Source: a virus
IMG/VR virus record: IMGVR_UViG_3300045738_002443
Location: 1 to 36,576 of that record
Reading direction: 5' to 3' (one strand)
Length of the DNA: 36,576 bases
A program made the position numbers and the translations under genes. The notes below the pieces were generated by a model. That model saw nothing but the letters and a program-made list of their open reading frames with translations, was not told where the DNA came from and made no database searches. How positions within the stretch are numbered: the stretch's first letter is position 1; each line of letters begins with the position of its first letter. Of the stretch, positions 4,313 to 30,529 are shown one piece after another.

Positions 4313-6798
4313 GATCCACCTACTGCGTTGGAAAGGTTGGGAAGGCGGGATGGGGCGAGCGCGCCGCGATCCCAGAAGGTTTCGGTGCCGTAGTCTTTGG
4401 CCTTTTTGCGCATCTGCTTTTTCCAAAGAGTTTCAGCCTCGGGATCCAGAAAGGACTGGATCTGATCCGCGACCAGGCGATCGAAGGCGAGCCGCTGGTA
4501 CCAGAGGCTGGATGCAACGGGCGTGTTGTATCGGATGAAGTTGGCGGCATCGCGGCCCAGCAGGCTATCTTTGCCTTCAGCAACGCGGCGGGCGTTGGAC
4601 GCGACGGGCTGGATGACACTGCTGCCGAAGCCCACGACCGGCCCCGCGATCGTTTCTGCCAAGCCGCCACCAAAGCGGTTTGTCTCTGATGCAAGGAAGT
4701 CACCGAAAATGCTGAAGCCGCCGCCCTGCATCTGTGCTGCGCCCCAGAACTTCAGGGTGTTCATAGGCCGGGGATCATTGCCCTTGGACATTTCCTTGAG
4801 CTGGATGGCCAGCCCGCCCATAAGCAGCAAACCAGATCCCATTGTGGCAGCGTACTTGGCTTTAGCCAGCGGGGTCGGCAGGGTTATAAATCGACGATAC
4901 TGGTTGATGAACAAAGACAAGCCGAACGATTTGTACATTGTGACAGACCGGGCTAGCTCACCCATGAAAGATCCAGGGGCATTATTGCCAATTGTGAGCG
5001 CACGCATTTCGACGTTGGCTGTCGGCACGGCAAATTCCAGCTGCTCTTCCATCGCCATCTGCAGGCGCATAGCCAGCCCTTCAGCCTCAGCTCGGGGCAG
5101 CGTCGTCTGATGCTCAAGCCAGTGCTGCGGCGTGATGAAGTTGGCATCGGTGGGCGCGACAAACTGGGTCTGCGCATCCCGCAGCAGATCCCAGTCATCA
5201 GGCTTGATGCCGCGCTGCTCAAACAGGTTGCGCAGGGGCGCATCGATGTCGGCGAAGGCGCGATCGGCATTATCGGCCAGAAAACCGGAGAACTCCATTT
5301 TGAAGGCCGTGCGGTTCATGTCGGTCCAGAACGACAGGCCAGAAGCGCGCATGACAAAATCAGACAGCCTGCCGGTGAATTCGCCTGAGATGACATCGCC
5401 TGTGTAGCGCGCGGCCGCCTGCCCTGTTCCAGCCAGGGTATCGGCGACATAACCCATGCGCGCTGCGGTTTCGCGAGTAGCGCTGCTGGACATCAGCTGG
5501 ATCGACTTTGACAGCACGTTGGTCGGGCGCATCCCGACAGCGGCAGCCGCATGGCTGATTGTCACCAGATCCGTCGGCGTCGACAGGAGCGCGGACCCCA
5601 GCTGGATCGATGTCAGCGTGTTTCGCACACCCCCAAAAAATCGCGCCCAGCCTTCGCGTTCCGCAACACTGACGGATCCGTCGACATGGGCAAGCAGCGT
5701 GCGCGCGCTTTTCGCAGCGGCATCCGTCTTGTCGAGCATCTTGGCATCACCGGCGATCTCAAGCTTCTTACGTGCCACCTGACTGGCATATTCCAGCCCC
5801 ATGCGCGGGTTCGGCCCCAGGACGCGCATCTGCGCCACTTCGCGGGCCATGCCATGCAAACCGCCGATCATCGCGCTGAACGGGTCGGACGTGCCGAATT
5901 CCTTGTTGTACTCCAACCAGGCATCCCCATCTTTGAAGTGCAGGACGCGATGTTCGGCGTGGCGGTTGTAAAGCGCCTTGCCCCCGACGGTTAGCGATGG
6001 TTCTCGGGTATCCCAGCCTCGCGTTGTGATGCCGTCGTAGACATCCTTCAGGAAAGCATCGGCGTCACCCTTGCGGGGCATTGCGCCAGCTGCTGCAAAG
6101 GGCTTGCCGGTTCTGAAGTCCGTGATGCGCGACCAGTCGAGCTTGGGGGCGACGGTTTGCGACCAGGCATCGAAACCTACCTTGCGGATCTGCGCGGTGT
6201 CGTGGCTGTGCGATACCCCAAAATCGTCCAGCTCGCCGATGTCGCCGCCATGCGCGTTGAACATCTGTCGCATGCGACGCTGCTGGTGCCGCACAGCATC
6301 GGCCATCACCTTGGCCCGTGGGTTGCCGCTATCCTGCATGTGCAGCTCGCGCATCAGGTCCCGGAGCATGACCTTGTCGCGGCTGTTGCCAAAGACGTTG
6401 CGGCCTGTGGTGCGCATGACGTCGTTCAGGCCGGCATTGACCGATCGCATCAACGCGTCGCTCAGCGCCTGGACATTCTCCCCCTTGAAGTCGAAGCCTT
6501 CCTGATGAGCTAAAAGGGCACGAACGGCGCGCAGCGGGTCAGCGGACGTCTCAACCAGGTTGCTGATCCGCTGCATCGATTGCAGCTGGTTCAGCACCTT
6601 ATGTCTGCGCGACAGCCGGGCCTTTGAAGTTGCCTCTTTCAAATTTGCCGCGGCTGTCGCTTCAGCTTGGTGACGTGGCATCGCCTGTTCGTACCGCGCC
6701 ACCAGCTGATCGTATTCGGACTGGATCGCGCGGCCGCGCGTCGTGTCCAATTCTTTGGCATCCATCGCCCGTTGGATGCAGTCGTGCAGGTTCGCCAT
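4309..6798 (-). CDS. Internal virion (ejection) protein, large core protein
   Basis: 829 residues, mostly alpha-helical and charged, with glycine-rich hydrophobic stretches near the C-terminus (GSGLLLMGGLAIQL). It lies between the lysozyme-bearing ejection protein and the tail fibre, where T7 keeps gp16, and it starts in a TAATG overlap with that gene. I infer that it corresponds to the C-terminal, non-enzymatic part of a gp16-type protein encoded as a separate gene, and that it is ejected into the cell envelope with the DNA. Recurrent segments (FGVSHSHDTAQIRKVGFDAW; PKLDWSR) look like those of conserved large proteins in alphaproteobacterial T7-like prophages. I see no enzymatic motif. Confidence 0.72.
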   Translation of the reverse strand: MANLHDCIQRAMDAKELDTTRGRAIQSEYDQLVARYEQAMPRHQAEATAAANLKEATSKARLSRRHKVLNQLQSMQRISNLVETSADPLRAVRALLAHQEGFDFKGENVQALSDALMRSVNAGLNDVMRTTGRNVFGNSRDKVMLRDLMRELHMQDSGNPRAKVMADAVRHQQRRMRQMFNAHGGDIGELDDFGVSHSHDTAQIRKVGFDAWSQTVAPKLDWSRITDFRTGKPFAAAGAMPRKGDADAFLKDVYDGITTRGWDTREPSLTVGGKALYNRHAEHRVLHFKDGDAWLEYNKEFGTSDPFSAMIGGLHGMAREVAQMRVLGPNPRMGLEYASQVARKKLEIAGDAKMLDKTDAAAKSARTLLAHVDGSVSVAEREGWARFFGGVRNTLTSIQLGSALLSTPTDLVTISHAAAAVGMRPTNVLSKSIQLMSSSATRETAARMGYVADTLAGTGQAAARYTGDVISGEFTGRLSDFVMRASGLSFWTDMNRTAFKMEFSGFLADNADRAFADIDAPLRNLFEQRGIKPDDWDLLRDAQTQFVAPTDANFITPQHWLEHQTTLPRAEAEGLAMRLQMAMEEQLEFAVPTANVEMRALTIGNNAPGSFMGELARSVTMYKSFGLSLFINQYRRFITLPTPLAKAKYAATMGSGLLLMGGLAIQLKEMSKGNDPRPMNTLKFWGAAQMQGGGFSIFGDFLASETNRFGGGLAETIAGPVVGFGSSVIQPVASNARRVAEGKDSLLGRDAANFIRYNTPVASSLWYQRLAFDRLVADQIQSFLDPEAETLWKKQMRKKAKDYGTETFWDRGALAPSRLPNLSNAVGGS

Positions 6799-9554
6799 TA
6801 GCGTGCCCCCCCAAGTGTGCAGGCATCGATGACGGCTTGCGCCGTTTCATCAGCGTCCAGATCTTCTAGAAAATCGCGCAAGGTGATGACCTCGCCTCCC
6901 TCGATCGCGAATTCCATGTCGTCGGCGACGTCACCCAGGGCGGATGAATTGGCGCGGATTGCCGCTCGTTGCGCTTCAACCAGCTGGTCGAAGGCGAGAT
7001 CGTCAGCAGCCTGCGCCTCTGGCGATGCAGCACCTTTGGCAAACGCCTCGGCCGGTATCACTTCAGCATCGACCTGTGGCGGCACCGGGTCTGCCATCCT
7101 GGCCATGCCAGTTTCCACCAGGTCGCCAAAAGCCTGTTTGTCGATCGCCTTCAGCACATCCAGCGGGCCGGGCTGTTCAAACAGGGCATCGCCCGTGCGA
7201 CCGGCCTTGCGCGCCTCGTCCACGTAGCGCTTCAGGAAGGCGCTGATCTTGGCTGCAGGAGCCTGCTTGCCGCCCGGCATGAGGTGACGCACCAGCGCCT
7301 GCGTCAGCGGAGCTACAGCGCCATCAAGCAGATCGATGTCGTCCAGCATCTCTGCTACCACCTTGGCGGCTGTGCTGCCTTCTTTCGCCGCCAGATCCCG
7401 CGCCGACATGATCAGGCGGGCCGCGTCCAGAATGAACGGCGTGATGTCCATTTCCGGACGCACGTTTCCAGCTTCGATTTCGGCGCGCAGCAGCGCAATG
7501 TCGGGGGCCGCTTCGGACATGGCATCCAGCAGGCTGCGCAATTCGCCTGGCTCAGTTTCGACATAGCGGGCGAGAATGTCAGGCGCATCGAACGCACGGG
7601 CAAAAACAGCATCATTCAGCTGACGGACGCCGTCGATCGACAGTGCGCCATCCTTGTCAAAAAATGCATTGCGTTCAGATCTTGGAAAGGATCCGGAAAA
7701 CGCCCTGGCAAAGTCACGGTTTTCAGCTGAGCTGAATTTGCGGCCGGGCACATAGCGGGCCATCAGATCCGCTGTCAGCGCGCGCTGGCCTACCTGGGCC
7801 CGCTCCGTGGCGTTCATGCGCGCAACGCCGCTGTCCTGGGCTTCGACCGCCATCTGGCGGCGTACGGCGCTGGACAGGTCCGTCTGGCGGCGGGCGATCA
7901 GCACAGGTTCCGTGATGCCTTCAGGGATCGGCTGGCCCGTCGTCTGCTCGATCTGCTGGCGATAGGCAGCTGCGCGATCCGGATTTTCCGCATAGGCCCG
8001 GCCGATTGCCCGCGCACGCCCGTTGCCGCTTTCGATCATGTTGTCGGGCCCCACGATGGGTGTGCCACGATCTGCCGTCGGACTGGGCATCAACAGCGCA
8101 GGATCCAGTCGTGCAGCGGTGTCAGCCACCCAGGCATCCGACGCAGCCCGCGCACGGTCACGCGGCTGCAGATCCCCAGCCGCCTGGCGAAGACTGGACA
8201 GATCAACAACCTGGTACTCAACATCGATGCGCAGATTGTCCCCAACGGACACCTGCCCGGTGCCCGTATAGCCCCGACTTGTGTAGCCGGTGAATTCCGG
8301 TGCCGGCGCATCGCCAGTCGCCATGCGCGGCGGTTGGCTGCGCGGTCCGCGATACCCTTCCCAAGCGCCCGTGCCTTGGCGCCGGTAGATCCACATGCCC
8401 AGCTGATCCTGGAGCTCTTCGCTCATGACCTCCTTGCCGGACAGGCCAAGGCCTTTTTTGGCCGCTTTCAATGTCGTGCCGACAATCTGATAGGCACCCA
8501 TTGGTGTGGCGACACGCCCGATCTGCCCCTTGACCCACTGACCGTATTCACCATTGACGTTGGAAAATGCGATTGCATCATCAACAGTCATTTCCGTGAG
8601 CTTCACACTTGCAAATCGCCCGCCTGATCTGTTCTGATAGCCAAACAGCGCGTTATAATCACCGCCGCTTTCCCCAACAAAAATGCCGTTTTTGATCGCT
8701 TCCCAATTGGGCGGCGCGGGTTGCGCCCAAGGTGCGGCTGTGGTTGGCCGTGCACCGGCGTCCAGATCTTGCCCGGCACTCAGTCGTTCGTATTCTTGAT
8801 TGACTGCGTCCAGGTCAGCCGCCTGCTCTGCCATGCCCGCCTCTTTGGCCGCTTCACGGCGCATCGCTCCGTAGGACAGCATGCGCGCTGCCCCGCCGAT
8901 GCCAAGGGCAAAGCCACCGCCCAGGCCCGCGCCAAGTGCAATGCGGGCAACCGGGTTGGGATCCTCGATCCCCAGTTCTTCAGCAACGCGATATTCACGC
9001 GGCAGCAACAAGGCCTCACTCGCGCCGCCCAGAACCGCTTCAGACAGGGTCAAGCGCATCAGGCTGCCTGAACCAAGTCCCAAGGGCAGCATTGCCAGGC
9101 TTAGCGGGTCTGTCATCGCCCTTGCGCTGGCACCGGCGAAGCCCGCAACGCCGCCACCATCGATTGCCAGAAGATCTTGCGCTTCCTGCAATTCCGTCTG
9201 CCGACGCTTCAGGGTGCGTTCTTCGAGCTCGTCAGGATTGGTAGGCAGATCGACCCAATCGTTCGGGGCCTCATCTCGGGCTTTCTGCGCCTCTTCAAAC
9301 AAAATGGCATCCGCTGCGTCGGTATCGATCGCAAACGGCTGTTCCCCCGCGGCCAGTCGCTGCTTGGCCTCGCTTGGCAGACTGTCGAAAATCTCGCGCT
9401 TGTAGCCCAGCTTGACCCGGGAACCATATCCCCAGGTATCCGTCCGCACAGTTTCCTCTTTCCAAGCGGCGGAGAACTTTTCGCCGAAAGACAGTTCCGG
9501 CGTCGCGGCCGTGACGCCCTCGGGGTTTTGTGGTTCTTCGACCAGGATCGTCAT
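6798..9554 (-). CDS. Ejection protein with lysozyme-like and DdrB/ParB-like domains
   Basis: 918 residues. Residues 1-130 are charged and helical; 135-225 are hydrophobic and glycine-rich (LGAGLGGGFALGIGGAA) and could cross a membrane. About 284-405 is a lysozyme/transglycosylase-like domain: GIFVGESGGDYNALFGY with Glu295 as the likely catalytic acid, then TPMGAYQIVGTTLKAA. About 445-575 resembles the DdrB-like ParB-superfamily domain of phage polyvalent proteins (DLQPRDRARA; IVGPDNMIESGNGRARAIGR). The remainder is helical. By position it is the T7 gp16 counterpart, which cuts murein for DNA entry. The ParB-like part could act on nucleic acid or nucleotide after ejection; this is inference. 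Start overlaps the next gene as ATGA. Confidence 0.8.
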   Translation of the reverse strand: MTILVEEPQNPEGVTAATPELSFGEKFSAAWKEETVRTDTWGYGSRVKLGYKREIFDSLPSEAKQRLAAGEQPFAIDTDAADAILFEEAQKARDEAPNDWVDLPTNPDELEERTLKRRQTELQEAQDLLAIDGGGVAGFAGASARAMTDPLSLAMLPLGLGSGSLMRLTLSEAVLGGASEALLLPREYRVAEELGIEDPNPVARIALGAGLGGGFALGIGGAARMLSYGAMRREAAKEAGMAEQAADLDAVNQEYERLSAGQDLDAGARPTTAAPWAQPAPPNWEAIKNGIFVGESGGDYNALFGYQNRSGGRFASVKLTEMTVDDAIAFSNVNGEYGQWVKGQIGRVATPMGAYQIVGTTLKAAKKGLGLSGKEVMSEELQDQLGMWIYRRQGTGAWEGYRGPRSQPPRMATGDAPAPEFTGYTSRGYTGTGQVSVGDNLRIDVEYQVVDLSSLRQAAGDLQPRDRARAASDAWVADTAARLDPALLMPSPTADRGTPIVGPDNMIESGNGRARAIGRAYAENPDRAAAYRQQIEQTTGQPIPEGITEPVLIARRQTDLSSAVRRQMAVEAQDSGVARMNATERAQVGQRALTADLMARYVPGRKFSSAENRDFARAFSGSFPRSERNAFFDKDGALSIDGVRQLNDAVFARAFDAPDILARYVETEPGELRSLLDAMSEAAPDIALLRAEIEAGNVRPEMDITPFILDAARLIMSARDLAAKEGSTAAKVVAEMLDDIDLLDGAVAPLTQALVRHLMPGGKQAPAAKISAFLKRYVDEARKAGRTGDALFEQPGPLDVLKAIDKQAFGDLVETGMARMADPVPPQVDAEVIPAEAFAKGAASPEAQAADDLAFDQLVEAQRAAIRANSSALGDVADDMEFAIEGGEVITLRDFLEDLDADETAQAVIDACTLGGAR

Positions 9555-17957: not shown

Positions 17958-18974
17958 CTACCCAGCCGCGATCTTGGTCAGCCGGTCGATCTCGGGCTTT
18001 AGGCGCTGGATGGCCTCCCGGTCCCGTTTCTGCGTTGCCTCGTAAAACTCGCCGCCCTTGCCCTGAAGCTGGCTCAGCTTGGCACGGGCTTCTGCCGGGT
18101 TGGTGTTCAGGCTTACGCCGCCATCACCCATTACCATCTGGTCATCGCCCATCATTTCGCCGATCGCCGCAAAGACCCGCATGGTGCCCGCGTCGCCGAT
18201 CTTGGGCTGAAGGGATGCAGCAAGGTTCTCCATCGCCGTAGCGTCAAGGCCTGCCTTTTCTGCGATAACCGACGCCGCCTGGCTGGCGAGGGTCAGCTTC
18301 GCCTGGGTCTGGTCGCCCCAGTCCTTTTCCAGCGCCGACATCATTTCGCCTTTGCCCTTCTCAAAATCAGCTGCGGCCTGTTGGTCCAGGGCCATGATGT
18401 TTTCGGCATAAAGACCGACCATCGCGTTGACGGCACTGTTAGACATGCCGTTGGCCAAACCGATTTCACGCACCTTGCCTTCCAGCGCCTCATTCCAGGG
18501 CGCATCCTTGGGCCAGCTGTCCGGGCGCTGAACATCGTACTTGTCGGGGCTTTCCGGGATCCCGAAAGTGGAACCGTTGGCCTTCAGCCAGTCGGCCACG
18601 TTTTCGTCCTTGCCGGGCTTGGTCAGCAGCTGGTCAGCAGGCTTGCCCAATTTCATCTGCGCGGCTTTTTCGCCCTTGGCCAGCCGGGCGATCACCTCGT
18701 CCTTGTCGTCAAGGGTCAGGCCTTTGGACACCAGCAGATCGCGATGATCGTTGAACTTGGCGTCTTCCCACCATTTGGCGGAACCTGCGGCGAGGGTATC
18801 TGCCCCAACACCGGCTGCCAGCGTGTCAGCGCCTGCGCCGCTTTCCATCGTATCGGCACCCGCATTTCCGGCGACGGTATCGGTGCCTTGTGCACCGGCA
18901 TCTGCACCGCCAGCGCCGGCATCATCGGCTGGCGCGAAACAGATCAGGGGTTTCAGAAAAAATTCAACGTACAT
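17958..18974 (-). CDS. Capsid scaffolding protein, T7 gp9-like
   Basis: 338 residues. The N-terminal part is Ala/Gly/Asp-rich and low in complexity, with short repeats of a GADTLAAG type (about residues 39-65). The middle and C-terminal parts are helical and charged, ending in a basic helix (RDREAIQRLKPEIDRLTKI). This layout, a disordered acidic start and a helical C-terminus that binds coat protein, is standard for scaffolds, and it lies between portal and capsid genes as in T7. GGAG is seven bases before the ATG. It would be internal to the prohead and leave before DNA packaging. Length is close to T7 gp9 (307 aa). Confidence 0.82.
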   Translation of the reverse strand: MYVEFFLKPLICFAPADDAGAGGADAGAQGTDTVAGNAGADTMESGAGADTLAAGVGADTLAAGSAKWWEDAKFNDHRDLLVSKGLTLDDKDEVIARLAKGEKAAQMKLGKPADQLLTKPGKDENVADWLKANGSTFGIPESPDKYDVQRPDSWPKDAPWNEALEGKVREIGLANGMSNSAVNAMVGLYAENIMALDQQAAADFEKGKGEMMSALEKDWGDQTQAKLTLASQAASVIAEKAGLDATAMENLAASLQPKIGDAGTMRVFAAIGEMMGDDQMVMGDGGVSLNTNPAEARAKLSQLQGKGGEFYEATQKRDREAIQRLKPEIDRLTKIAAG

Positions 18975-22153: not shown

Positions 22154-23944
22154 TTAAGCTCCGTATGGATTGGTGATGTCCCAACCAGTTTTCAGGCCAC
22201 CATCATTCCCCGACAGGGGCGGCCCTCCATTGTGGCCCATGCGGCCGCGTTTATCGTTGTCGGGCATTCTGTGGGCGTAGGGGCTTGTGCCATCCGCCTT
22301 GTGTTCGCTCAGCAGCAGGTACTGCAGGGCGTCGTGAACGTTGGCCTCGGTGTACGACTTGTCGGGCACCTTGCGCTTGTCGCCGCTCCTGTTGATCTCT
22401 TCGGTCCAGACATACCGAGCAGCAAACCCTCGGATCAGGAAACGGCAGCTCGGGTCGATCAGCAGGCCGGGTTCACCACGGGTCAGCGGGGCTTCCAGCG
22501 CGGCGCGCACGGCCTCAAGACGGGGCTGGATGCGGTTGGTCCCGATCCGCTGTGGCCGGATGAAAAACCCCGCCGCCTTGCCGACCATTAGGTTCCAGGT
22601 CGCGTTTTCATCCGCCGCCTGGGACGCGCCATGCTCACCCGCCATGTCGCCCCAGCCCGCTTCGACCCGGTAGCCATTGAACCGCGTGCCTTCCAGCAGA
22701 TCTGCCAGCCGGTTGCCGAACACGGCCGCCATCAGGCGTTCTTCGGGAAAGTGCAGCTCGGCATAGATGCGCCAGCGGAAGGCTTCATCGCATTGGGCGA
22801 TGACAGCGGCACCCTTGAAGCCCTGGTCAAGCCCGATGCGCAGGGGCTGGCCATGGATCAACGCCAAGGGCGTGTCGCTGACGTGGACGCGCTGATTGAA
22901 TTCGCGCTTCCAGACCGGATCGCCGACGCGCAGATAGGTGACCTTGTTGTAAACCAGCCGATCGACCATATCGCCGCGCCCGGCGAGCCGTTGCGTCGCG
23001 ATCTGACGCTGGTAGTAGGTTGGCGACAGGTTCTGCAGGTTTTCGCAGCCGGGCTGGCCGTAGCCAGGCTGGTTGAAAAACTCGATGCTGATCTGTTTTG
23101 CGCCCGTTGGCAGATCACTGGCGAGCGCATCCAGCAGCAGCTTGCGCTTTTCCTTGTCGTGGAAGACCTCGAACGTCCAATTGTCCTCGTCGGGGGCGTT
23201 GAAGTCGCCGACGATCTGGCCATAGCCGCGCAGATGGATGGGCAGACCCTCAAAGTGCTGGCGCGCTGGCCAGCGGTCGATCCGCCCGATCCCTACGGTC
23301 AGGATCTCGACCGGCATCGTATCGCTTTCGTTCAGCACGATATCGGTTGTCTGGACGCCGCGCATCGATGCCACGATGTCATCGCCAAACGCCATGAACT
23401 CAGCCACGAACTCGATCGGGCCATGGTCATCCTCGAAGTGAATGATGTGGGTCACCGGATCGCCGCGCCCGCCTGACCACTTGCCCAGCTCTTTCGGGAA
23501 TGTCTCAAGATATGACGGGATCGATGTGGACCACAGCTGGCGATAGGTTTCGCGGATGAACAGCACCTTGTAGCGCCGCACGCCGTCAATGGTCGATCGC
23601 GGCATTTCGATCGCACGGCGCAGGCGCGACTTCATCAGCGTTGTCGTCTTGCCCGATCCGACCGGCCCCTGAATGCCGGCGACATCGTCGTTCGACCAAT
23701 AGAACCTTTCAGCGATGGGGCCCGGAAAAGTGACCTCGTCGACATCCGGCAGCTTGCCACTGGCGAAATCGCCCTCTAGGCTGTCAATTGCCTCTTTCGC
23801 CGTCTGCCCTGTAAGGGCGGCAAGCTCTTCATCTGTCAGCTCGCGCTTTGCGCCCGATTGAGGCACCTGCCCCCCGCGCCCTTCATGGGATGGGGAAAGC
23901 ACCACCCCCCGACCCCATTGATCGTCTCCGAATTTCGCGTTCAT
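22154..23944 (-). CDS. terL: Terminase large subunit (ATPase and nuclease)
   Basis: 596 residues. ATPase domain: Walker A GPVGSGKT at about 93-100, and a Walker B-like segment DIVLNESD at about 201-208 with Glu206 as catalytic acid (the usual Asp before Glu is Asn here). The nuclease part begins near 366 with RIGLDQGFKGAAVI, in which Asp371 fits the first metal-binding acid. It pumps DNA into the prohead through the portal and cuts it. The first 70 residues are a charged extension. The start overlaps the stop of a 66-aa gene as ATGA; GGAG lies upstream. It differs from T7, in which terminase genes are at the genome end. Confidence 0.93.
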   Translation of the reverse strand: MNAKFGDDQWGRGVVLSPSHEGRGGQVPQSGAKRELTDEELAALTGQTAKEAIDSLEGDFASGKLPDVDEVTFPGPIAERFYWSNDDVAGIQGPVGSGKTTTLMKSRLRRAIEMPRSTIDGVRRYKVLFIRETYRQLWSTSIPSYLETFPKELGKWSGGRGDPVTHIIHFEDDHGPIEFVAEFMAFGDDIVASMRGVQTTDIVLNESDTMPVEILTVGIGRIDRWPARQHFEGLPIHLRGYGQIVGDFNAPDEDNWTFEVFHDKEKRKLLLDALASDLPTGAKQISIEFFNQPGYGQPGCENLQNLSPTYYQRQIATQRLAGRGDMVDRLVYNKVTYLRVGDPVWKREFNQRVHVSDTPLALIHGQPLRIGLDQGFKGAAVIAQCDEAFRWRIYAELHFPEERLMAAVFGNRLADLLEGTRFNGYRVEAGWGDMAGEHGASQAADENATWNLMVGKAAGFFIRPQRIGTNRIQPRLEAVRAALEAPLTRGEPGLLIDPSCRFLIRGFAARYVWTEEINRSGDKRKVPDKSYTEANVHDALQYLLLSEHKADGTSPYAHRMPDNDKRGRMGHNGGPPLSGNDGGLKTGWDITNPYGA

Positions 23945-24141
23945 TCTGAAAACTCCGGCATGGCCAAAAGGCTGAATAGGGTCGGACAGACGGGGATAGA
24001 GAAACCGCGCGCGCAGGCCCCCCTGGGGGTCAAGGCGCGATCGACATTGCGCGGGGACCAGGCGAAAACAGCGGATGCCAACTGATTTTCAATCAGTGTG
24101 ACGACAGGTTTTTTGCCTATGTTTTTCAATGGTTTAATCAT
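23941..24141 (-). CDS. Small basic protein tiled between terminase subunits
   Basis: 66 residues. The start overlaps the small terminase stop as ATGA and the stop overlaps the large terminase start as ATGA, so it fills the gap exactly; this is the main argument that it is real. The N-terminus is basic (MIKPLKNIGKKP), followed by a hydrophobic-mixed body with two cysteines and no recognised motif. It could be a coupling peptide for terminase translation or a packaging accessory protein. A 7-bp hairpin (ACTGATT/AATCAGT, 24082-24098) lies inside the coding sequence. Confidence 0.55.
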   Translation of the reverse strand: MIKPLKNIGKKPVVTLIENQLASAVFAWSPRNVDRALTPRGACARGFSIPVCPTLFSLLAMPEFSE

Positions 24142-24806
24142 TCTGTCCGACTTCCTTTGTCCGACTTGGATTTTCCCGCATCGCTAACGTCTTGTTTTTG
24201 TTCAGTTTCATAGGCGACATCAGCAGGCACCATCCGACCACTGCGCGACCCGCTGACGACGCGGGCATTGTCGCCCGGCTGGCCTGCTGCTGGGGCCGAC
24301 GGCACGTTGACATAGACCGACTGCTGCACGTTGACGTCCGGTGTCGCCTTGGGCGCGCCATAGGGCATCAGGGCATCCGCTGCCCGCAGCTGGATCGTGT
24401 AGATCTGCATGAACACCGCCAGCCTCTGACCACCAGACGGCGTCGCAGGCTTCGTGCCGCCGCCTTTGACCTTCGTGGTGGCACCGTCATATGCCCAGGC
24501 CAACACCAACTCGGTGCGCTCGAGGGCAGCCATCATCGCATCGCCGCCGTTGGCCAGCCCAGCCATCTGCGCTAGCACATCCTCGGGCATGGCGTAGCCC
24601 TTGGCCGCCAGCCAATCGCGCATCTGGTTGTTGACCTTGCCTTTGGAACCCTTCGGACGCCCAGGTGCCTTGTCCTCGACCACGTCCACCACGCTGCCAC
24701 GCTCATCCGGCAGGAACGTCAGCTGCTCACCCGCGTCATGCATCTTGCGCAGACGCACAGCCGCAACCTTGGCCATCTCTTCGAAGGTATTTTTCGCCTT
24801 AGCCAC
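24138..24806 (-). CDS. Putative terminase small subunit
   Basis: 222 residues from a GTG at 24806, chosen because AAGGGGG lies eight bases upstream; the TTG at 24812 would be only about two bases from it. The N-terminal part is basic and helical, with a GRPKGSKGK segment that may contact DNA and a central helical region (QMRDWLAAKGYAMPEDVLAQ). The C-terminal region is Gly/Pro/Val-rich and disordered. It lies directly before terL with one small gene between, as expected for the DNA-recognition subunit. The identification is by position and general layout, not by a firm family motif. Confidence 0.65.
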   Translation of the reverse strand: MAKAKNTFEEMAKVAAVRLRKMHDAGEQLTFLPDERGSVVDVVEDKAPGRPKGSKGKVNNQMRDWLAAKGYAMPEDVLAQMAGLANGGDAMMAALERTELVLAWAYDGATTKVKGGGTKPATPSGGQRLAVFMQIYTIQLRAADALMPYGAPKATPDVNVQQSVYVNVPSAPAAGQPGDNARVVSGSRSGRMVPADVAYETEQKQDVSDAGKSKSDKGSRTE

Positions 24807-24853
24807 GCGCAAAACCCCCTTTTTTATTCATTTCCAAGGGGTTAGCGGTAGCC

Positions 24854-24924
24854 CACAACGCTACCCACAACGCTTTTAGGCCCTTTTGGCCCTGCGTTGT
24901 GGGGTGCGTTGTGCCTTTTTTTTT
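24854..24924 (+). terminator. Terminator-like hairpin plus T9 on the plus strand
   Basis: Inverted-repeat unit 1 forms a long stem (about 20 of 22 positions pair) with a 20-base loop, and on the plus strand is followed by CC and nine T residues (24916-24924). That is the form of an intrinsic terminator for plus-strand RNA. No gene is read in that direction here, so it may block antisense transcription into the replication genes, or the resemblance may be a by-product of the binding-site array. Confidence 0.4.
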
Positions 24925-24985
24925 ATATCTTTCAATGACATAAGATAGAGACACAACGGCACAACGGAAAAAAGGGCATGCTCTC

Positions 24986-25022
24986 ACGCGCGCACGGGCG
25001 CATGTGCATGCATGTGTGTATG
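24986..25022. other. Alternating purine-pyrimidine tract in the centre of repeat unit 2
   Basis: About 37 bases of mostly alternating purine and pyrimidine (ACGCGCGCAC, then GCGCATGTGCATGCATG and TGTGTATG), containing the palindrome TGCATGCA. Such sequence favours Z-DNA or cruciform formation under negative supercoiling. It lies between the two arms of inverted unit 2, so it would be exposed as a loop or a melted segment. Confidence 0.5.
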
Positions 25023-25249
25023 TCTCGATTTTCCGTTGTAGCGTTGTGGGCGGCGGGTAACACGCTGTTTTCGCTGGCATTTTGCCCACAACAAGGGGCA
25101 CAACGCGGGCAATCCCATTTTGTGCGCCGTTGTGCCCCTGACCCATGGCCGCAGGCACCCGTCGCGTGGTAATAATGGCATCCCAGCGGGTCGGGGAGAA
25201 GCGGAAACAATCGCCGCAAATCAATGACTTGAACATTGCGCGCATCATC

Positions 25250-27274
25250 TTAGCCAAAATCCTCCACATCTTTAGGCAACGGCTTGCCCGATGGCGTCGT
25301 GGCGCTGGCCACAACAGCGCCGTCGCGATCCATCGGAAAGCCAGTCAGGCCGGGGATGGACTTCACGGGCATCAGAAATCCGCGTGAGCGTATCCCGGCC
25401 AAGGTCAGGGGGTTCGGGGTGGGCGTTGCACCAGGCACACGGCTGGCGGACTGCTTCCAGACGCCACCGGCCCAGTCTGTGTTCCTGAACAGCTCCTTCA
25501 GCTGGGGGATCGGCTGGTTGGCGATGAACAGGTTCGCACTCTCGCCGGATCCCTGCACGCGCAGGCCGACGGTGGACAGCATGCTGTTGGCCTTCTCGCT
25601 GGCGCGGTTTTCTGCCAGCCCTCCATCATCCTCGCCCAGGCTGCTACGCAGACCAGAGGGCGCACCGGGCAGCTTGGCGGCCGTCATGATCCACTGAGCG
25701 ATGTTGTACTGCTGGCCGCGTCTGAAAGGGTCATACTGTTGGCCCATGAGGTGCAGCAGCATCGCGTCGGCGTCATTGACTGTCTCTTCGCGATCGGCAT
25801 TGGCCATGAACGCAACCTTGACGGCCCAGCTGGCCATGACATCCTCGGTCGCGATGTCCTCCTGGCTGCACATGTCGGCCATCGCCAGCACGGTGCCCCA
25901 GTTGTCGGCATCGCGGCCCGTGACGCCCTGCAGTTCAAGCGCGTGACGCCATGCGGCCATGCGTTCGACCCAGGTGGGCCACCGATCGATCAGCATGCGC
26001 TTCAGGCGGGCACCACGCGCCCGCCAGGTGCGGGGCTGCATGTTCAGCTTGGCCGTCCCAGCCTTCAGTGGGCGCAGCTCCAATCGGATCAGGCGCTGGA
26101 CGTCCTGCGTCTTCATCACGCCGGGGATCAGGATCGAGCTGAAGAAGAATGCGGAATAAACCTTGCCGCCGACGCCTGTCTGGTCAGCAGATCCCCGGAA
26201 CCATTCGCCACCCGATGCTGCGACGCGCGCCAGGGCGATGATATCGCGTTCCTTGGTCGATCGTTCGTCGCCGGGTTCGAGCTCGTCAACGGCGACGGGC
26301 AAGCTGGATTGGCCCAGCTTGCTGGTGATGCCCGATTTAGTGACATCAGTGGTCTGCACAATGCCATCGTCGCCGTGCAGCAGTTTCATCATCTTCTGCA
26401 GCTCGGACTTGCCGGATCCGGCAGGGGCCACAAGCCAGAAAGTAGGACGCCAGTCCAGCGCGCCGCCCAGCATCTGGACGCCAACCATGCCCAGCGTGAT
26501 GAACGGGTGAACATCAGGGGCTGCCCAGTTCCAGGTCCCGATCGTGCGCAGGATCTCGGGCACCGGATCAGTGGGGGTAGTGCTGTCATCAGGGTGCGGG
26601 ATCGGAGGATAGGCCGGGTAGATCTTCTTGCCGATCCGGCCCGGCCGCTGCGCCTCGCCAGCGACCAGCACGGTGTCGCCCATGTGGTAGATCAGCTGAC
26701 CATCGTCATCCGTCCAGGCACCCACGCCGCGCACCGCATTGTCGGGGTTGAACACGCCGCATTCCGATGCGGCCGCGTACATTTCCCAGGCGGCACCAGC
26801 CTGATCGAAGGCGCGGGGCTTACGAACAAACCCGCCGTCTTTGCTCTCTTTCCACTGGGGAAAGTTATAGGCCAGCCGTTCATTCATATGCCCGAACAGC
26901 GACAGGACAGTTTCGCGGTCGTGCTTGGTGATCGCTCTCAGCTGGCCGTTGACGTCAAGATAATAAGCATGGCCGCCCCGTATGCCCAACGGCGTGACTG
27001 GGCAGTCGTCGAAAATCTCGGTGCGGCGTCTGGTGCCCGGTCGGCCACCACCACCTGACGAAGCTCTTTGCGTTGATCCGCTAGCTTTTTTGCCTTTCGC
27101 GCTTGATTGCTTTGATCGATCGGAGCTTTCATCAGCGTTGTCTTCCTTCCTCGGGGCTTCGGGGGCGTTTTCCAACGCATCGCGCAGACCCTCGCGGGTC
27201 GGGGGCTTGCGATAGCTCGCGGGTTTCTGTTCCTGCAACCAGTCTTGGTTTGTTGCTGCCGGGCTGTCGTTCAC
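25250..27274 (-). CDS. Replicative helicase-like ATPase (D5/DUF927-like)
   Basis: 674 residues from a GTG that overlaps the previous stop as GTGA, with GGAGG ten bases upstream. Residues 1-85 are charged and disordered. An ATPase core follows with Walker A APAGSGKS at about 283-290 and Walker B LPVAVDE at about 325-332, then an arginine-rich region (VQRLIRLELRPL) that could hold the arginine finger. The overall layout resembles phage/plasmid primase-helicases of the D5/P4 or DUF927 type. It should unwind DNA at the phage origin, working with the Toprim primase-like protein encoded upstream. The CACAACG array lies directly downstream. There is no DNA polymerase gene, so host polymerase is probably recruited. 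Confidence 0.75.
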   Translation of the reverse strand: MNDSPAATNQDWLQEQKPASYRKPPTREGLRDALENAPEAPRKEDNADESSDRSKQSSAKGKKASGSTQRASSGGGGRPGTRRRTEIFDDCPVTPLGIRGGHAYYLDVNGQLRAITKHDRETVLSLFGHMNERLAYNFPQWKESKDGGFVRKPRAFDQAGAAWEMYAAASECGVFNPDNAVRGVGAWTDDDGQLIYHMGDTVLVAGEAQRPGRIGKKIYPAYPPIPHPDDSTTPTDPVPEILRTIGTWNWAAPDVHPFITLGMVGVQMLGGALDWRPTFWLVAPAGSGKSELQKMMKLLHGDDGIVQTTDVTKSGITSKLGQSSLPVAVDELEPGDERSTKERDIIALARVAASGGEWFRGSADQTGVGGKVYSAFFFSSILIPGVMKTQDVQRLIRLELRPLKAGTAKLNMQPRTWRARGARLKRMLIDRWPTWVERMAAWRHALELQGVTGRDADNWGTVLAMADMCSQEDIATEDVMASWAVKVAFMANADREETVNDADAMLLHLMGQQYDPFRRGQQYNIAQWIMTAAKLPGAPSGLRSSLGEDDGGLAENRASEKANSMLSTVGLRVQGSGESANLFIANQPIPQLKELFRNTDWAGGVWKQSASRVPGATPTPNPLTLAGIRSRGFLMPVKSIPGLTGFPMDRDGAVVASATTPSGKPLPKDVEDFG

Positions 27275-27806: not shown

Positions 27807-28093
27807 GCTGCGCCCTCCTCAGCTTCATCACCGTCTGATGTTGCGAAACGCCCCGCCATCTGGATTGCGCCCGATGCAAACAAAGCCAGATCCAGTTCCG
27901 CCATAAGTGCTTCGGCTTCGGTCCAGCCGTCGTCTGTATCAGCAAACGGCCCCTGCTTGATCTCGATCGACACAGAAGGATCGCACCGCGTGATGACGGC
28001 CGGGCCATAGCGATCGTCATCTGTCGTGATTGCCTCAACGCGAGACAGCACCTGCAGCCCGTGATGTGTTTCCAGTCGCGCAAAATCAGTCAT
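27803..28093 (-). CDS. Small acidic hypothetical protein in the replication operon
   Basis: 96 residues, acidic, with a mixed alpha/beta character: LETHHGLQVLSRVEAITTDD, then YGPAVITRC and helix TEAEALMAELDLALFA. Ends in an acidic tail (SDGDEAEEGAA). No family recognised. Both ends overlap neighbours as ATGA. The gene is downstream of the primase-like gene and upstream of the helicase. Confidence 0.6.
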   Translation of the reverse strand: MTDFARLETHHGLQVLSRVEAITTDDDRYGPAVITRCDPSVSIEIKQGPFADTDDGWTEAEALMAELDLALFASGAIQMAGRFATSDGDEAEEGAA

Positions 28094-29253
28094 GCGGCTC
28101 CCCTTCCGTTTTCGGTTTCTGTTGATGCCGCGCGCAAGGCGTCGTTCAGATCCTTGCCGCCCCAGCGGTTTTGAAAGACCCGCACTGTGCGACCGGCCGC
28201 CTGGTGGCTGGCGATCGCGCGGTCCAGTTCGTCGCGCGCGGTCTTGTTGTCGTCCAGATCCGCGATCAGCGTGACGTTGCTGACGGCTTCAGGCAGCACG
28301 ACATGGCCAAGGTTGCTAAGCGATATGGCTGCCAGCACCCGCGCCTCGGGCTTCAGGACAACGGCTGACAGCGCGTCCTCGATGCCTTCAGCAATGAATA
28401 CATGCGCACCGGGCTTTACATCACGCAGGCTGCCCGGCTTGCCGCCGCGCGGGCCGATGCCCTTCCAGATGTGGATGCTGCTGGTCCAGTAATCGCCCAG
28501 GACCTTCTTGGCCTTTGGCACCGGTGCCTTGTCCCAGGTGCCGTTGTCTTTCTGGGCCAACCAGGTGCGATGGACCGCAACGTTTTCGCCCCTGTGGTTC
28601 GTGATCATCGCGACCATGGCGGGATACGAACCTTCGAATACCTCGCCGGTCTTTTCATCCTCGTGGTAATACTTCAGCTGGGGAACATAGCGCAGCACAC
28701 CAGGCTGCCGCCCGAGACTGCGCAGATCGATGCCGCGCTGGTCGCGCAGATAGAATTCGACCGGAGTGTTGGCGATGCGTTCCTGACCGCCCAGAAAGAT
28801 CGCCTGCGCGGCTTTCATGCGCCTGGTCTTTTTGTCCCTCGCGGATGCTTCGGCCTGTTTGCGCCGTTCAGCAGATGCTTGTGCTGCCTCTTTGCGCCGA
28901 CGGATGTCTTCGGGGCTGTCGGATTGCAATCCGAGAAAACCGCGCGCCTCGCGCAAAGCCCCCTGCATGTCGCAGCCCAGCGAAAGCGCGATCAGATCGA
29001 GGATGTCACCATAGCCCTGCCCTGGCACGCTGCCGACGGCGTAATCGTTCCAGCGCCCCGCGTCCGGCCCCGACACGGTTACGCAGAAGCTGCCGACAGA
29101 CCGATCGGCACGGCCGGGGTTCAGCGTGAAATACTTGCCGAACGTCGTATGCGACCCGTTGGCGGGCGGGGCATATTGCGCCAGCACGCTGTCGAGCTGG
29201 TCAACCAGCATGCCCTTGATTTCGTCAAGGGAGTATGTCGGACGGGGGGACAT
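28090..29253 (-). CDS. Toprim-domain primase-like protein
   Basis: 387 residues. An N-terminal primase-like region (about 1-110, including GRADRSVGSFCVTVSGPDAG and GDILDLIALSLGCD) is followed by an Arg/Lys/Ala coiled-coil (about 118-150) and a Toprim domain near 283-345: VFIAEGIEDALSAVVL with Glu289, then LIADLDDN with Asp332 and Asp334 as metal-binding acids. It should make RNA primers for phage DNA replication or process DNA ends. A CHC2-type zinc finger at the N-terminus is missing: only two cysteines (57 and 94) are seen before the coiled-coil. The ribosome site before the ATG is weak, so translation may depend on the preceding gene 13 bases upstream. Confidence 0.82.
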   Translation of the reverse strand: MSPRPTYSLDEIKGMLVDQLDSVLAQYAPPANGSHTTFGKYFTLNPGRADRSVGSFCVTVSGPDAGRWNDYAVGSVPGQGYGDILDLIALSLGCDMQGALREARGFLGLQSDSPEDIRRRKEAAQASAERRKQAEASARDKKTRRMKAAQAIFLGGQERIANTPVEFYLRDQRGIDLRSLGRQPGVLRYVPQLKYYHEDEKTGEVFEGSYPAMVAMITNHRGENVAVHRTWLAQKDNGTWDKAPVPKAKKVLGDYWTSSIHIWKGIGPRGGKPGSLRDVKPGAHVFIAEGIEDALSAVVLKPEARVLAAISLSNLGHVVLPEAVSNVTLIADLDDNKTARDELDRAIASHQAAGRTVRVFQNRWGGKDLNDALRAASTETENGRGAA

Positions 29254-29268: not shown

Positions 29269-30201
29269 TCAGGTCGACGTATGGCCGTCGTGGTGAGCCA
29301 GTCGACCCGCCAACAGCTGCACGATGTCGTCGTTGCTTTGGATCGGCTCGCCAACCCATGCCTTGATCTGCTTCCAGCGCACATGGACGTCTTCCCGCCC
29401 CAGCTTCAGGACAGCTGCTGCGCCACCTTCGCCGGTACCTTTTGCCATGAGCTTCGCCAACTTCAGATCAAGCTTGGGCGTCCAGCTGCCGACCGCTTCC
29501 AGCTCGGCCGTTGGTGCAGGCGCGGGCACCGCTTTTGGCTTCGGAGTTTTTGTTTTCTCGGCAGCCGCCTGCCTTGCCTGTCTCACCTCATGGATCTGCG
29601 CACGCGAATTACTGAGCTTGTTCTTGATGCTTTTTTCAGCGCGCCCCAGTGCCTGGGCAATATCAGAAAGTGATGCGCCGCGCAGATGCATATCGATCAG
29701 CGTGGCAAACTCTTCATCCGAAAACGGCCCGGTCACCAGATCATAGGCTTGGGGTTCACGGGGTGTTGCTGACGGGGACATCTCTGCCCCCGCCGTACCG
29801 CCACCATCACCTACCGCCCCCTGCGGGGTTACGCTCTCTGGCGTTCCTCTGACATCATCAGATTTTTCGGATATGGTTGACGGATCTGGTTGCGTCGGCG
29901 CATCGGGCAAGTCCGACGCTGGTGCATTGGTTTCTTCGGGTTCTGGCTGTTCAGGGTGCGGATCTTCCGTTGTGTCGCCTCGGGCCACGATCAAAGCGGG
30001 CACAATATCACCGTGCAAATGTTCCGGTAGACAAAGCGCCAGATGAATGGCGCCGCATTGACCAGCATCGGTCGCAACATCGACACGCAGATTTTTCAGG
30101 CCCTGCAAAAACACCTCAAAGACGTAGTGCAGCGCGTAGATATCACTGCGGCGCTCATCAAGTTGCTTCATCTTGCCATCCAGAATTTCAAGAATGTCCA
30201 T
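29269..30201 (-). CDS. Early DNA-binding protein with two Myb/GcrA-like helix-turn-helix regions
   Basis: About 310 residues from ATG 30201 (GAGG eight bases upstream; a GTG at 30210 is also possible). The N-terminus is helical (ILEILDGKMKQLDERRS). Residues about 80-150 are Pro/Asp/Glu-rich and disordered. Then GPFSDEEFATLIDMHLRGAS with LSDIAQALGRAEKSIKNKLS looks like a SANT/Myb or GcrA-type helix-turn-helix; a second similar unit is SWTPKLDLKLAKLMAKGT with AAVLKLGREDVHVRWKQIK. Two tandem units joined by a Pro/Lys linker suggest binding to DNA, perhaps the phage origin or promoters. It may be an early regulator or an origin-binding protein; I cannot decide which. Confidence 0.6.
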   Translation of the reverse strand: MDILEILDGKMKQLDERRSDIYALHYVFEVFLQGLKNLRVDVATDAGQCGAIHLALCLPEHLHGDIVPALIVARGDTTEDPHPEQPEPEETNAPASDLPDAPTQPDPSTISEKSDDVRGTPESVTPQGAVGDGGGTAGAEMSPSATPREPQAYDLVTGPFSDEEFATLIDMHLRGASLSDIAQALGRAEKSIKNKLSNSRAQIHEVRQARQAAAEKTKTPKPKAVPAPAPTAELEAVGSWTPKLDLKLAKLMAKGTGEGGAAAVLKLGREDVHVRWKQIKAWVGEPIQSNDDIVQLLAGRLAHHDGHTST

Positions 30202-30529
30202 CGCCTGCACCTCGTTCCTGTTGAAAAACTTCGTTGGATCGCCCTGCCCGCCACCGCGCGAATTTTGCGATCGCCTCGGACGCGTCGAGATGTGCCCAGC
30301 CTGCGCCAGTCTCGCCCTTCTGGATCGCCTGGATCAAACCATGCGCCGGGCCGATCATCGGGCGTATGATGGGATGATCCTCGCTGACGAAGGGCAGCAC
30401 ATCGCCCAGGACGCCGACGAACATTTCCTGATCAGCCCTCGCCGGCATCCGCTCGGCCACAAACCACGACAGGGTGAAGGCCAGCGTTTGATCTGCGGCG
30501 GTCAGCTTGGCTTCGATTTCATTAGCCAT
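30188..30529 (-). CDS. Small hypothetical protein in the early operon
   Basis: 113 residues from ATG 30529; an in-frame extension to 30604 overlaps the neighbour by about 80 bases and is unlikely. It reads as a helical soluble protein (LSWFVAERMPARADQEMFVG; DASEAIAKFARWRAGRSN). No family recognised. It overlaps the preceding gene by eight bases and the following gene's start by 14 bases. Part of the early block between the Cro-like and replication genes. Confidence 0.6.
   Translation of the reverse strand: MANEIEAKLTAADQTLAFTLSWFVAERMPARADQEMFVGVLGDVLPFVSEDHPIIRPMIGPAHGLIQAIQKGETGAGWAHLDASEAIAKFARWRAGRSNEVFQQERGAGDGHS

Follow-up and report, generated by a model that had tools for sequence, protein, structure and literature searches.

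The locus considered here raises a simple question: does an array of short repeated words, lying between a helicase gene and the terminase genes of a phage, mark an origin of replication or a site at which DNA packaging begins, and which protein reads it? The stretch of DNA analyzed, referred to as the window, is a complete IMG/VR record (IMGVR_UViG_3300045738_002443, 36,576 nucleotides). It encodes head-tail connector, capsid, tail, and integrase-like proteins, a cI/LexA-like repressor, a Toprim primase, and a D5-like helicase. The description of the phage as T7-like, given in an earlier note on this DNA, suits its virion genes only; because the genome also carries genes for an integrase-like protein and a cI/LexA-like repressor, the phage looks temperate. 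A protein encoded between the connector and capsid genes (17958-18974) matches both a phage protease PHROG and PF00353, an RTX calcium-binding repeat, and positions 6798-9554 of the virion-gene region encode a 918-aa protein with a ddrB-ParB domain (PF18763). Neither DNA nearly identical to the window nor a match to its small terminase was found in the phage records.

The array extends from position 24854 to 25134 (281 bp). The earlier note had placed its end at 25139, for a length of 286 bp; the start was correct, and the final site stops at 25134. A recount bore out the nine exact and two single-mismatch copies of a 7-mer that had been claimed. The exact copies are located at 24854, 24866, 24952, 24960, and 25099 on the plus strand (CACAACG) and at 24895, 24907, 25042, and 25128 on the minus strand (CGTTGTG). 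The near copies are CACAACA at 25087 (plus) and CGTTGTA at 25034 (minus). Same-strand pairs are spaced by 12 or 8 bp, again as claimed. When the window was shuffled 100 times under a first-order Markov model, the maximum count of any 7-mer within a 290-bp stretch was five (usually four), as compared to nine in the array. Since the copy number exceeds the shuffle maximum, the array is real. Seven other exact copies of CACAACG are scattered in the window outside the array, and the chance expectation for the whole window is ∼6.

The overall architecture of the array is that of three inverted modules. The module beside the small-terminase gene (24854-24913) is formed by the sites at 24854, 24866, 24895, and 24907, a geometry that recurs in relatives. 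It is delineated from the central module by an AT-rich spacer (24914-24951), a candidate unwinding element, the AT content of which is 78% versus 40% in the surrounding 11 kb. The central module (24952-25048) contains the sites at 24952 and 24960, the near copy at 25034, and the exact copy at 25042. Near the array center is a zone of alternating purines and pyrimidines (24985-25023), uninterrupted for the 26 bp from 24998 to 25023. The module beside the helicase gene (25087-25134) is formed by the near copy at 25087 and the exact copies at 25099 and 25128; the twelfth site of many relatives is not recognizable in the window array. The module centers originally proposed (24883.5, 25000, and 25116.5) hold if the third unit is taken to be the inner pair, 25099-25134, and the window contains no partner for the outer left arm at 25087. 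A GGGTCAGGG-like sequence occurs at the helicase-side end of the array, at 25135-25148 in the window and in most of 16 arrays compared.

Related loci were gathered with the small terminase, the helicase, and the large terminase, and later with a 40-row helicase alignment. Approximately 65 relatives, mostly phages of the Rhodobacteraceae, have an array of the same geometry between the helicase and terminase genes, mostly with 11-12 sites, pair spacings of 8 and 12 bp, and three inverted modules. A first scan with CACAAC revealed the array in many relatives and missed it in others; a de novo scan demonstrated that nearly all of the latter carry an array built from another word in the same place. 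At least 27 different 8-bp words occur in the 65 arrays. These were placed by hand into a common 8-bp register, and the alignment of odd words (e.g., ACACACCG, GCAAAACA, and GGTACACA) is the analyst's choice and a source of error. Oceaniglobus trochenteri carries two such prophages (L254 and L097, G047), the predicted origin words of which differ. No clear array was observed near the helicase gene in L208, L223, L233, Bordetella PY223, or Serratia MQ-4.

Typical site offsets are +0 +8 -30 -42, +86 +94 -169 -177, and +221 +233 -253 -264. The same-strand neighbor distances (n = 318) are 8 bp in 149 cases, 12 bp in 113, and 11 bp in 37. It had been claimed that the module centers are phased by exactly 116.5 bp. 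This is not general, for in the relatives the centers are separated by 111 ± 6 bp (A-B) and 116.5 ± 9 bp (B-C). What is conserved is the 8/12-bp pair spacing together with the orientation pattern, the equal spacing of modules being merely approximate. The expectation that spacing would be kept while sequence drifts was thus borne out as to spacing, and the binding word itself also changes. In 57 arrays, the spacer that flanks the central module toward the terminase genes has a median AT content of 67% versus 34% overall. The longest alternating purine-pyrimidine run near the array center has a median length of 27 bp versus ∼6 bp in control windows, and in nearly every relative it is the longest, or among the longest, in the flanking region.

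The changes in the word allow its reader to be sought by co-variation, here defined as the partial rank correlation of word distance with protein distance, controlled for large-terminase distance. The value for the helicase is 0.42 (0/500 permutations) and that for the primase is 0.315 (1/500). With the helicase controlled, the primase signal is 0.07 (115/500); with the primase controlled, the helicase signal is 0.32. No coupling was observed for the small terminase (-0.05), the HTH protein (0.05), or the repressor (0.03). The best 30-column windows reach 0.55 in the helicase (residues 613-643), 0.07 in the small terminase, 0.08 in the HTH protein, and 0.13 in the repressor. As judged by co-variation, the word follows the helicase, and best its C-terminus, rather than the small terminase, the Myb/HTH protein, or the repressor.

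The helicase gene (25250-27274, minus strand) was assigned on the basis of PHROG primase-type families and Foldseek. The Foldseek matches, namely AsfvPrimPol, SaPI5 Rep, NrS-1, and D5/E5 (E ∼1e-7 to 1e-6, TM to target up to ∼0.5), identify the product as a D5/SF3-like AAA+ helicase. A search of its sequence against the PDB gave no match, nor did NCBIfam for the helicase or the terminases. The repeats are positioned directly downstream of the helicase gene, the exceptions being relatives with inserted genes and an upstream placement in Acinetobacter phage Acjo_20. Residues 590-648 (25331-25507, minus strand) track the word best and form the proposed origin-binding domain. The model of the C-terminal domain has a pLDDT of 88, and the domain alone has no significant match among PDB folds (best E 0.18). 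Co-variation lends indirect support to a reading of the repeats by this domain. The Toprim primase encoded upstream (28090-29253, minus strand; PF13362 Toprim_3, PF23639 DUF7146, phrog_510) is its proposed partner.

Within the C-terminal domain, residues 620-632 (25379-25417, minus strand) are predicted to form a β-hairpin that contains residues 624, 627, and 629. In column scans these three residues pair with word positions 3, 2, and 5, respectively; the other proteins yielded a few high z-scores, but with low mutual information. Co-changes were counted by parsimony on a tree of the helicase minus its C-terminus, with all branches treated as equal and the p-values therefore rough. Residue 624 and word position 3 changed together five times versus 1.2 expected (p = 0.002), and residue 627 and position 2 seven times versus 1.0 (p = 8e-7). 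The co-change of residue 629 with position 5 is weak and below significance on the tree (p = 0.075). Swapped residue-position controls gave p > 0.8.

Held-out helicases carry a basic residue 624 in 11 of 12 cases with G at word position 3 and in 0 of 5 otherwise, a fit of 16/17 in which the register of several words was set by hand. L203, L217, L219, L226, and L227, whose words have no confident register, were omitted. For clear 8-mers alone, the counts are 4/4 (L174, L193, L209, and L218) versus 0/6 (L176, L187, L170, L204, L202, and the second Oceaniglobus prophage). The word of this last prophage, CCACAACG, and its hairpin, PLTLAGQRTRG, match the prediction of the code; the first prophage uses another word. 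A natural pair, L032/L033, is 99% identical in the large terminase, 96% in the small terminase, and 89% in the helicase, and in it word position 5 changes from G to T alongside a change in the hairpin from VSTRG to VKSRG.

The location of the array might nevertheless suggest a pac site, the target of the small terminase, at which headful packaging would start. The candidate small terminase is encoded downstream of the array (24138-24812, minus strand) and is recognized by its place in relatives, where it precedes the large terminase. The candidate large terminase (22154-23944, minus strand), the anchor for collecting relatives, was assigned from a sequence motif and gene order; neither has a family match. 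In most relatives the array immediately precedes the candidate small-terminase gene. It also keeps to the terminase end in L230, L232, L234, and L235, where genes intervene and the helicase is ∼2 to 3.5 kb away. The small terminase, however, does not co-vary with the word in any alignment window, and in the L032/L033 pair the words differ in spite of nearly identical small terminases. Furthermore, the GTGTAACA-type array of Acjo_20 (L239:3080-3480) lies directly upstream of a fused primase-helicase gene in a record in which a search for homologues of the window's two terminases found none. The annotated small terminase of Acjo_20 is at the other end of the record, ∼4.5 kb from the array if the ends are joined, and is thus not adjacent to it. 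Because the reader cannot be identified from position alone, the coupling outweighs the terminase-end location, and a pac site is considered improbable. The earlier note had offered an origin and a packaging site as its two best explanations. The first stands, with the helicase as probable reader; the small terminase is no longer favored in that role, and the 310-aa DNA-binding protein likewise did not co-vary with the word. The GC skew of the window was uninformative and gave no support for an origin.

On the basis of the word-helicase coupling, the L032/L033 pair, and the Acjo_20 array beside its helicase gene, the array is very probably a replication origin, predicted to be bound by the neighboring, self-loading D5-like helicase in the manner of SaPI Rep/ori. 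Contact with the 8-bp words would be made by the C-terminal domain of the helicase, in which the hairpin near residues 624-629 would recognize word positions 2, 3, and 5. Two hexamers, facing one another, could be accommodated on the up to 12 sites, which are arranged with two-fold symmetry. The AT-rich spacer would then open, perhaps with help from the alternating tract, the helicases would load, and the Toprim primase would prime synthesis. Changes in the word may serve to keep the origins of co-resident phages apart.

The closest precedents are the staphylococcal SaPI Rep/ori and SCCmec Cch2 systems, in which a self-loading initiator helicase uses a C-terminal domain to bind short repeats; the iterons of SaPI Rep lie just downstream of its own gene (PMC7581432). 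The phage helicase is the predicted counterpart, and SaPI5 Rep is among its best solved fold matches. The phage arrays differ in that their geometry, two-fold symmetric and with up to 12 sites, is fixed while the words number at least 27, and in their central alternating tract. The phage also has a separate Toprim primase, whereas the SaPIbov1 and SaPI5 primases are of the AEP type (PMC7581432). Given that the isolated C-terminal domain matches no PDB fold significantly, the phage system would, by analogy, be a variant rather than a proven member of the SaPI Rep/ori group. Other initiators show partial similarities. The α protein of phage P4 is a primase-helicase initiator that recognizes its own repeats, as is predicted here, but it joins both activities in one protein. 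The λ O and iteron-plasmid Rep origins likewise combine repeated sites with an AT-rich region; their initiators are not helicases, however, and direct repeats predominate among their sites.

Co-variation names the reader of the sites and not what follows, and the helicase might bind the array for autoregulation, copy control, or partition, with replication beginning elsewhere. Two considerations make this very unlikely: the composite layout, which includes an AT-rich spacer, and the precedents of SaPI Rep/ori and SCCmec Cch2. Least probable of all are operator or silencing sites for a repressor or Myb/HTH protein: both families occur widely among these phages, and the DNA-binding domains of the HTH protein, which varies very fast, are weakly Myb-like, but the word is uncoupled from either protein, the same word occurs with very different HTH recognition helices, and the additional copies in the window are about as many as chance predicts. 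The HTH protein had been an attractive reader for its Myb-like domains and was rejected by co-variation. The Myb/HTH-like protein of the window (29269-30210) is 45% identical to that of L018, whose large terminase and helicase are 95% and 85% identical, respectively.

Returning to the helicase-bound origin, its fixed geometry with diversified words, partly readable code, central tract, and DNA-binding domain lacking a PDB fold match appear to be new. A search of one literature library revealed no paper on such an origin in Rhodobacteraceae phages, and the podovirus paper PMC10386132 mentions neither a helicase nor repeats. We would put at about even the chance that this helicase family combines an undescribed DNA-binding domain, a readable residue-to-base code, a 12-site two-fold symmetric origin with a central tract that aids opening, and words diversified like incompatibility groups. 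If the array is a helicase-bound origin, these phages would provide dozens of natural origin/initiator pairs that share one geometry but differ in their words, a series in which a code of protein-DNA recognition could be read and directly tested. They could also account for the coexistence of related prophages in one host, with neither firing the origin of the other, and the geometry would offer a motif-independent route to such origins in viral genomes.

One further contig among the relatives, 3300034375_010233 (L020, L092), is interrupted within its large terminase gene and has overlapping ends, which suggests that the genome is circular or terminally redundant.
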